From: Macrocystis pyrifera
Lineage: Eukaryota; Sar; Phaeophyceae; Laminariales; Laminariaceae
NCBI GenBank assembly: GCA_031763025.1
Contig: JASSKH010000031.1
Span: forward strand, 3,769,783-3,833,782
Direction: 5' to 3'
DNA: 64,000 bases
The position numbers were made by a program, and so were the translations under genes. A model generated the notes under the pieces. That model worked only from the letters and a program-made list of their open reading frames with translations, was not told the DNA's origin and made no database searches. Positions 33,729 to 37,100 of the stretch are shown piece after piece (position 1 is the first letter of the stretch; each line of letters starts with the position of its first letter).

Positions 33729-34124
33729 ATGACGGTGTCCACTCGATCGGGCTGCCGCCCAGTGCGCCGCTCAGCCATGGCCACGGCATCAGGAATTGCG
33801 GTGGCTCTCTGCCTTGTAGCGGCAGCGGAATCTTTCATCGTCCCAGCACGTGCGACGCCGGTGGCACGCCGTCTCAAGACTAGCAGTCCCACGGGTAGCA
33901 TTAGTGCCTCTATCGATCCCGCGGGATCTTGTCATAGCTTCAGTACCCGTGGTGGTGGCACACTGAAGCCTGGGAGTACTGGACGCAAGGCGTTGGATTG
34001 TATGGCGGCCGCGGTGGACAGGGCTGCATCGACTGTTGGTGATGTTGGTGTTCTCGGAGCTAACGAGGGTGTCCTGAGCGAGGAGCAAAAGAGGATGGCT
34101 TCGACACTGCTGGAGCTCGGACAG
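33729..34124 (+). CDS. USP: USP exon 1: plastid presequence and N-terminus
   Basis: It encodes a basic start, a hydrophobic core ([13 protein letters not shown]) and then FIVPARATP. This resembles the heterokont plastid-targeting motif with phenylalanine just after signal-peptide cleavage. A Ser/Thr/Arg-rich stretch follows, and the exon ends [15 protein letters not shown], the plant USP N-terminal helix. Donor is CAG|GTGTGG, phase 0. Starts at 33729 and 33777 are both possible. Confidence 0.82.
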
Positions 34125-37100
34125 GTGTGGGGTGTGGGGCCCATAGGACTAGGGTTCGTTGCGGTTGGACAGCTGTTGGCCCGGTGCTGTGTGATAGCGT
34201 TAACGATGCTGGTGGCTCTCGTGTGTGGTACTCGGTCATGAGGGTGCAGCATGCAGCATGTCCTTCAATATTCAGGACCGCCCTTGTTCATACTACCTTT
34301 GCCGTATTGCTGTTATGAATAATACTACATTTACGTCACGATGATGCGAGTACAAGTAGACTCATGATTTCAGCTCCTCTCGTACCATACCAGTACCACC
34401 TGGTCTGATACGTGCCCGTGGGTATTCTTGCGTGTGGCTCCGTGTGGGCGGGCCTTGTACGTTTCTTTAGGGCGCGAGGGTTGTGTATACAGATGGTACC
34501 GCGGTACAGCAGTACAGCAGCAGCACCTGGAACATATGGTGACAAGCCCATCGAGCACTTCTCTGTAATCCCGCTTCGTATTTTTTTGTATTCACGAAAG
34601 TACGAGTAGCGGCACCTGTTTGTATGATGCGAACGCGCTGGCTCTCCTCTTTTCCGCTTCTCCGTTCTCGTCTGCCTGCTGCGTTTGCACCCAACACATT
34701 CAAAGCACACATGATATCATATCGTGCCGTATCATATTCGTGTAATATGTACGTTCCCCTTCGGGTTGTGGTTTGACTTGAAATTCCGGGGATGTCGCAA
34801 ATTGAAAAGCGGGATCATCAAAATCAATTGACGTTATATGATCGATGATTACAGGTTCGACGATGTGTGGCAGATGGTTGATTTTAAAGTTGTGAAAATA
34901 TGCTGTTTCATACCCACCAAGTGTGTAACATTAAGGCCACGCTGGCACCCAAGCGTCCCCTGGTCCCCGGGTTTCCGGTCACTCTGATATCTACGTGTTT
35001 TATCGGAACAGAGAAAACATCGCTATCTCAACACGCTGTCTTTAGAACTTCGGCTGGTTCGTGCTTACCGGAGAGCGACGGTGATTTGGAAGGGGTCCAT
35101 CACAGCAGCTTGTGTTTTTCTCGAGATTGATCTCCCGCCGGTTCTCAACAGAGGCTCTATACCTCGACTAAGAGGTGCTCCAGAGGTCGAAATTGGTCGA
35201 ATTTGGGGTGCACAAATTGAGACTAAAAACAACCCCCATCTGAACGTTATCACTTCACTTGCGGACCAGCCACAGCTCCTCGTAGGAAAAACTACAGCCC
35301 GCGACATTGAGGGATACTCATGATGGGGTCTGTGAGGGCGTCGGGTGCGCCAGACGGCAGTCGTAAGCAGCGAGAAATGACTCACGAGGTGTTTTCGTGT
35401 ACTCGAAGTTGCGAGCGCGAGTAATACACAAAGCTCGCAAAAACGCTAAGATGTTTCGCTTCACGCGAGAGAACATAGCACGATGGCTACGTCACCGATG
35501 AAGAAATGGCCTTCACAAGAAGATTGCTGTTCTCCAGGCGGATGATATTTCTCTTGGGGTAGTCGTCGTCGAAGATGCTGGGCGAGGAAAAAACGTTCCG
35601 GTGGTGGTTATTAAGTTACTGGGCCACAAAAATTGCAAAACTGGGCTAAAAGCTCAGGATTCTTAAATATTTGCATCCACTACTCTACAACTACGAAACC
35701 AAGACCTTGATTGCAAATCCGTTACTCTAATTCCAAGTCGCATGTACAGTATCTCACGGGTCGGGTCGGGTCGGGCCGGACCGTCTTCAAAATCACACGC
35801 GTGGGGTTGGGGTCGGATTAGGTGACCCAAACCGACCCACAAGTTTTCGCCTGGCCCGTCCCGCCCCGTGAACACCCCTGGTATGTATATGATACCGAAA
35901 CGCCTAACCGCGGGTACCTGACGACGCGTTCCGCAGGGTGCTGAAAACTGACGATGACAAGTGACGGTTGCAGCTACCATTGTGGCCACAGCGTGGTTGG
36001 GGGGTGATAGCACAATGGTTGACGGTCAAGTTTCCATGCAAGGAGGCGTGCGTGCGGCATGGGCGCAAGCGACGTTACCCTCTGCACGTACTGCTGGGCG
36101 CTGACGCTGCTCGCAAAACTGTTTTTGATAACGCCAATATTATCGTTGTTTTGGTCGCTCCATATGAAAACGGGTCCCCAGAGGATTAACAGAGAGCTCC
36201 ACCACTATTTCAGAGGGATGGTGGAGCACGCGGATTTCAGAGCGAAAGTATATCCCGGTATTACCGCAACTTGGCCAAATGTGGAAACCGGTCGCTAGAA
36301 CCGGAACCGCGAAAAACACCTATTGGTTACCAATGAATTCTAAAGTCCGAATACATCGGGGTTTCCAGCATATAGGCAGGCGTTTCTCACGAGAACCGGA
36401 ACCGCGAAAAACACCTATTGGCTACCAATGAACTCTAAAGTCCGAATATCGGGGTTTCCGGCATATAGGCAAGCGTTTCTCACCATGGGTCAACAACAAA
36501 AATCTCGAACCCGCGATTTTTGTTTTGCAAACCACCTGTGATTGGAGAAACGATGAGAACCTGGTACCGGTACTGCACATCCCTGCTACTACATACCACT
36601 CTGGGCGAAAATATAAGGACCGCTTGCACATTAATATGAATACTAATTGGTCCTTATATTTACGCCCAGGTTGATGCTCGGTTTTGGACTATAGACGTGG
36701 ACCGATCGTTGCCGCTGCTGTCTTGCGCTTCTCTCTGCTCTCGTTTATGTTTCGCCCGGTCTCAGGGCCACATCTTCGAAGGCTGGCCGGCGGCCGGTTC
36801 CAAAGACGACGACAAGAGGAAGATCATGGACCAGGCTATAGTCCTGGACTCCAAGTACCCCGGAGGACTTGCGGCTTACGTCGCAAAGGTTTGCAGCATC
36901 GGTGCATGGCGTTTTTTTTGCTCATGCGGGTTTTCTTTTCTCTTGACTAAAGCTGGTTGTTCTTCTCCTTAAGAGGAAGCTCATGGACCTCCTGGGTACC
37001 CGGAGGCCTCGCGGCATACGTCGCAAAAGTTTGCAGCCTCTGTATACGACGTTTTTCGTTGGGAGTGGGTTTGGTATTTTGTCTAAAGTTGGCGGTTCCT

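Follow-up and report, generated by a model that had tools for sequence, protein, structure and literature searches.

A nuclear gene of the brown alga Macrocystis pyrifera probably encodes a UDP-sugar pyrophosphorylase (USP) that carries a bipartite plastid presequence and supplies stromal UDP-glucose for SQDG and, via an epimerase, for galactolipids. The gene lies on the + strand of a 64,000 nucleotide stretch of the genome, termed here the window, and positions given below are those of the window unless a contig is named. In the literature sampled here, a plastid-addressed USP is already known in kind, predicted in two diatoms and localized by GFP in one, and the kelp gene is a new example from a brown alga.

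Gene structure and enzyme identity

The exons, located between 33.7 and 62.5 kb by tblastn with a provisional Arabidopsis USP sequence and by phmmer against PDB chains, form a gene of 14 exons and 13 introns at 33729–62509. With splice sites set by hand, the spliced model consists of 734 aa and shows neither a frameshift nor an internal stop. A preliminary description of this DNA had given the gene as 33729–36888; these positions hold the first two exons, and the gene continues to about 62509.

Exon 1 (33729–34124, residues 1–132) contains the presequence and a plant-like N-terminus and ends at the donor CAG/gtgtgg. Exon 2 (36766–36888) begins after the acceptor ctcag/GGC and joins exon 1 in phase 0. 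The in-phase join at 34124/36766 proposed earlier is thus borne out; the solved MbUSP (NQGHLFSHWP) has a matching junction, and so does Arabidopsis USP (provisional sequence). The end of exon 1, previously given as the N-terminal helix of plant USP, is a counterpart of that helix and not the literal plant sequence.

Exon 3 (38991–39149) is found by phmmer against the PDB chains and in the spliced model, as are exons 2, 4, 6 (47825–47983), 8 (49379–49506), 9 (50481–50637, with NVEYNQLD) and 10 (52015–52170). Exons 4 (41256–41318) and 7 (48573–48755) are backed by the spliced model and a motif check, and the exon 4 peptide is taken to be the nucleotide-binding loop. Exons 5 (42705–42761) and 13 (60666–60842) come from the spliced model. 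Exon 11 (55866–56021) has a weak donor, ATG/gtcggt, and an uncertain boundary; exon 12 (57396–57550) precedes a GC donor, as do exons 6 and 9; and exon 14 (62374–62509) ends in the stop TAG, with an additional exon past 62470 possible. The exon 11 donor and the 3′ end past 62470 are the least certain parts of the model. In this hand-made model 10 introns are GT-AG and three, those after exons 6, 9 and 12, are GC-AG. The GC donors stand at 47984, 50638 and 57551, and a share of three in 13 introns seems high for a single gene.

Judged by homology, the gene is a UDP-sugar pyrophosphorylase, as had been proposed, since the full-length match to characterised USPs is far above that to UAP or UGPase. 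The model gives 556 bits with MbUSP and 284 with Leishmania USP, against 71 with the best UAP and 31 with the best UGPase. It shares 43% identity over 623 aa with Arabidopsis USP (provisional sequence) and gives 67.6 bits with PF01704 (cut-off 22). Six USP motifs, picked from the alignments, are all intact in the window gene, and also in L001, L002 and Arabidopsis USP (provisional sequence); in L003 the exact string is missing for three of the six. MbUSP (PDB 9umk/9uml) belongs to the same enzyme family as the kelp USP but is bacterial and has no plastid presequence. By eye it is nearly identical to the protein of L001, a Myxococcales genome; this L001 protein has 48% identity to the window USP over 605 aa.

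A search of the kelp's own genome with the USP model gave 20 matches, 13 of which are the window gene itself, and residues 1–132 show one match there, at 100%. A Pfam search of raw three-frame translations of 33471–43442 yielded no families, presumably because the exons are short; an NCBIfam search likewise yielded none.

The presequence

The presequence comprises residues 1–91, and not the approximately 115 extra residues first estimated, as the alignment with plant USP begins at Met92 (34002), which pairs with plant Met1 (MAAAVD/MASTVD, plant sequence provisional). The USP-like region starts here (34002–34124), and Met92 is a possible internal start with a weak context, T at −3. Heterokont plastid presequences consist of a signal peptide followed by Phe or another aromatic residue at +1 and then a basic, Ser/Thr-rich stretch with few acidic residues. 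The kelp presequence shows the same parts, an N-terminal signal peptide, then F at +1 and a basic Ser/Thr-rich stretch. The predicted signal peptide (33777–33833) starts at the second ATG, in the strong context gcc-ATG-g, and has a hydrophobic core with a mean hydropathy of 2.63. The first ATG, at 33729, adds 16 residues with four Arg to the n-region, and with either ATG the AES/F site scores 8.46 on a provisional von Heijne matrix. The putative transit peptide (33834–34001, residues 36–91) is 56 aa long, with eight Arg/Lys, two Asp, no Glu and 15 Ser/Thr, for a net charge of +6. The hydrophobic signal core followed by an F-initial, basic Ser/Thr-rich stretch, as first described, is present. 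The AES/F site has Glu at −2 and Ser at −1, whereas light-harvesting controls have A or SA before the F, a difference that speaks against the presequence.

When residues 18–77 are shuffled, 12 of 5000 sequences reach 8.46 but none does so with F at +1. Among the 233 other ATG frames of at least 75 codons in the window (nested frames counted apart), two reach 8.4, none with F at +1. With the limits relaxed to a score of 6.5 and to frames of 22 codons or more, F at +1 still being required, a scan of the window on both strands finds the AES/F site and one other, which scores 8.3 at 28630. The matrix score, the shuffles and the window-wide nulls thus support a predicted bipartite presequence of the heterokont type.

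The same genome supplies controls. It contains 55 light-harvesting matches, which indicates a photosynthetic host, and these proteins resemble the light-harvesting proteins of kelps. L040 reads MKSFAVAAASLCALAPASA/FVPG, with the site ASA/FVPG scoring 8.9. L041 reads MKSAVMAVACAAGAQA/FVAPR, with the site AQA/FVAPR scoring 8.7; this unspliced stretch, located via a motif of kelp proteins, is taken as a light-harvesting first exon. Among the 15 light-harvesting loci inspected for their N-terminal frame, out of 20 retrieved, 10 have SAF where the site is presumed to lie. A strict rule, which asks for a frame of 22 codons or more and a score of 8.4 with F at +1, recovers one of 20 correctly oriented light-harvesting loci, apparently because an intron at SAF interrupts most of these presequences. 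The rule is specific yet insensitive; a match means much and a miss little.

The other USP gene, on contig C210

Six further matches of the own-genome search lie on the minus strand of contig C210, where a second USP gene is found at about 2032519–2051815 (L024–L026), with exon blocks that span the protein from its N-terminal helix into the C-terminal region. The N-terminal exon ALSQFAPGAVLPRAVLDNNSVLSDEE is located ahead of VGLVTMLCEQNQVHL. The candidate first exon is MTSVVTATEINDSTSEASMSPMSTGD (contig 2051815–2051738), chosen by start context and donor, and the likeliest form of the first exon is short and hydrophilic. Unlike the window gene, the C210 gene has no break at FVL/VAGG or LPVE/VSTR, so that one or more of its exon boundaries are placed differently; this difference hints at an old divergence.

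The preliminary description had suggested looking for a second USP free of a presequence. The second USP is there, and it probably has no presequence, the first exon being a candidate and the scan insensitive. Among 84 candidate single first exons in the 23.3 kb upstream of the C210 USP (at least 22 codons, phase-0 donor), none has the plastid signature (8.4, F at +1), in a scan that would miss a presequence split by an intron, the rule recovering one of 20 light-harvesting loci. A looser scan of this upstream region finds one low-complexity frame, scoring 7.1 with F at +1. The C210 USP is thus a probable cytosolic enzyme.

When the 537 Mb genome was searched with PF01704, there were 12 matches, which fall into three loci on C192, C204 and C211. 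C192 is a UAP, its start judged by eye to have no presequence, and C204 and C211 look like UGPases by their motifs. No UGP3 is recognised among the three PF01704 loci; the same scan missed both USP genes, so this is no proof of absence. A phmmer search on L018 gave low-complexity matches only.

A single gene serving two places is one alternative reading of the window gene. The plastid form would come from long transcripts, and translation from Met92 (34002) would yield a cytosolic USP. The alignment of Met92 with plant Met1 would suit this, as would the fact that the cytosolic site of the C210 USP is only probable. We consider the reading unlikely, since two ATGs in better contexts precede Met92, whose own context is weak (T at −3), and since the second USP may itself occupy the cytosolic place.

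Relationships of the two enzymes

A tree of six rows comprises the window gene, the C210 USP (as blocks, junctions unchecked), plant USP (provisional sequence) and bacterial rows. The C210 and plant USPs pair weakly (82/85), the window gene stands just outside, and the bacterial rows are apart (100/97). By path and by identity (49%), the nearest row to the window gene is the C210 USP. The tree is too small to choose between relocation of a cytosolic enzyme and two old lineages. We tentatively raise the possibility that brown algae maintain a cytosolic and a plastid USP whose lines of descent parted long ago. The enzyme of the plastid would then be an early branch, not a copy moved there recently, and would replace the UGP3 reportedly lacking in red algae as a standing source of UDP-glucose in red-derived plastids.

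Among 83 pattern matches on genome contigs there are five relatives, of which three are close and the two from chlamydiae distant; among 264 pattern matches on viral contigs there are none. The distant USP-like proteins of the two chlamydial genomes (L004, L005) show 23–25% identity.

Other readings of the presequence

The presequence might instead be a plain signal peptide, or an address for another compartment such as the ER or the periplastid space, so that the enzyme would act outside the stroma. The presequence evidence is stronger for the signal peptide than for the transit peptide, and glucan synthesis inside the chloroplast ER is discussed by Kroth (2008; PMC2173943). We nevertheless find this quite improbable, as the site has F at +1, followed by the 56-residue basic Ser/Thr-rich stretch as in the kelp's own light-harvesting proteins, and as the diatom USP is in the chloroplast by GFP (PMC10356853).

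Codon usage counts mildly against the presequence. The codon bias of the other exons of the gene, sought in residues 1–91, is not found there, and their usage is intron-like. In 362 of 815 stop-free, overlapping intron and upstream stretches the score equals or exceeds that of residues 1–91 (407 of 815 with synonymous codons only), and GC3 is 0.55 in these residues versus 0.79 in exons 2–14. The weight is mild because the homologous residues 92–132 also have a poor synonymous-codon score (−0.19; full score +0.10), so that exon 1 is weakly biased overall. Codon bias is moreover a check for coding and not a defining feature of a heterokont presequence. Upstream of the gene model, no stop interrupts the frame as far back as 33471, and three more in-frame ATGs (33540, 33582 and 33588) lie there; this upstream part has a codon score of −0.62, worse than that of residues 1–91.

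A 5′ untranslated region that happens to be open, followed by a purely cytosolic protein beginning at Met92, would agree with the intron-like codon usage but is very hard to credit in view of the 91 in-frame residues without a stop, the strong ATG context at 33777, the failure of all 5000 shuffles and all 233 other frames to give the same site, and the known precedent of the Phaeodactylum chloroplast USP (PMC10356853).

Known systems and the proposed role

The reading preferred here, a plastid USP with a bipartite presequence, has its precedent in diatoms. Phaeodactylum USP 23639 was predicted to be a chloroplast protein, and plastid localisation is mentioned for both diatoms (Kroth 2008; PMC2173943). 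The same protein of Phaeodactylum tricornutum, termed UGP2, was placed in the chloroplast by GFP (Zhang 2023; PMC10356853). It is active on four sugar-1-phosphates, with Glc-1-P used more than 100-fold more efficiently than the others, and transcripts of SQD1 and SQD2 track it in Phaeodactylum, SQDG itself being unmeasured in the part of that study drawn on here (PMC10356853). The kelp USP is similar to UGP2/23639 in being a stramenopile USP of the UGP family with a predicted signal peptide and transit peptide, the chloroplast site being that of the diatom enzyme by GFP. The likeness is one of family and anatomy, not of compared sequences. A difference is that the separate cytosolic UDP-Glc enzyme of Phaeodactylum is a UGP/PGM fusion (PMC2173943, PMC10356853), whereas the kelp has the second USP and the UGPase-like genes.

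By analogy with the diatom enzyme and from the known chemistry of the family, the kelp gene would be transcribed and its product sent to the stroma. With its signal peptide the USP would enter the chloroplast ER; cleavage at AES/F would follow, and the F-initial transit peptide would then take the protein across the inner membranes. In the stroma the enzyme would couple UTP with sugar-1-phosphates, chiefly Glc-1-P, to give UDP-sugar and PPi. The UDP-glucose would pass via UDP-sulfoquinovose to SQDG, and via a plastid epimerase to UDP-galactose for galactolipids. Of the two products assigned to the enzyme in the preliminary description, UDP-glucose is thus the likely one. UDP-galactose would be secondary, since the diatom enzyme's more than 100-fold preference for Glc-1-P over Gal-1-P (PMC10356853) suggests that UDP-galactose more likely comes from the epimerase.

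The plastid of Euglena is green-derived. A USP isoform of Euglena gracilis has a typical bipartite presequence by prediction and was proposed as the plastid UDP-Glc maker; in the portion of the paper used here it is not among the plastid proteins confirmed by proteomics (PMC7580956). The Euglena and kelp enzymes are both bipartite, but the type of presequence differs. Arabidopsis UGP3 (UGPase-B), a chloroplast UDP-glucose pyrophosphorylase providing plastid UDP-Glc for sulfolipid (PMC6329318), is like the kelp USP in proposed role but is a different type of enzyme. No plastid UDP-Glc enzyme is identified for Leucomyxa, a colourless ochrophyte, in the relevant extract of PMC11528492.

For red algae, the text consulted of PMC6325583 reports no detected homologue of UGP3 and leaves the source of plastid UDP-glucose, for sulfolipid and galactolipid, open; in the literature sampled here, a chloroplast USP is shown experimentally in one diatom (PMC10356853). 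A brown-alga USP of the same anatomy, together with the second USP in the genome, supports USP as a more general ochrophyte answer. The two kelp USPs form a testable gene pair in a seaweed and open no new category.

Other features of the window

Exon 2 is partly repeated within intron 2 on the + strand: its 3′ portion, together with the splice donor, recurs twice in tandem in decayed form, at 36985–37056 and 37139–37210, with identities of 75% and 82% across 72 nt. Scanning of the window for Rfam families and for tRNAs gave no matches. Retroelement pieces (RVT_1) are found on the + strand at 7070–7726 and at about 20174–20341, one with 82 bits and one weak and below the cut-off. Intron 5 contains a very long poly-C (poly-G on the other strand) at about 45699–45935, which is read as poly-Pro and poly-Gly frames. 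The minus strand at 13120–14625 holds FNIP repeats (PF05725, 163 bits) in a long open frame, which is the top segment of the window by the codon usage of the USP gene.
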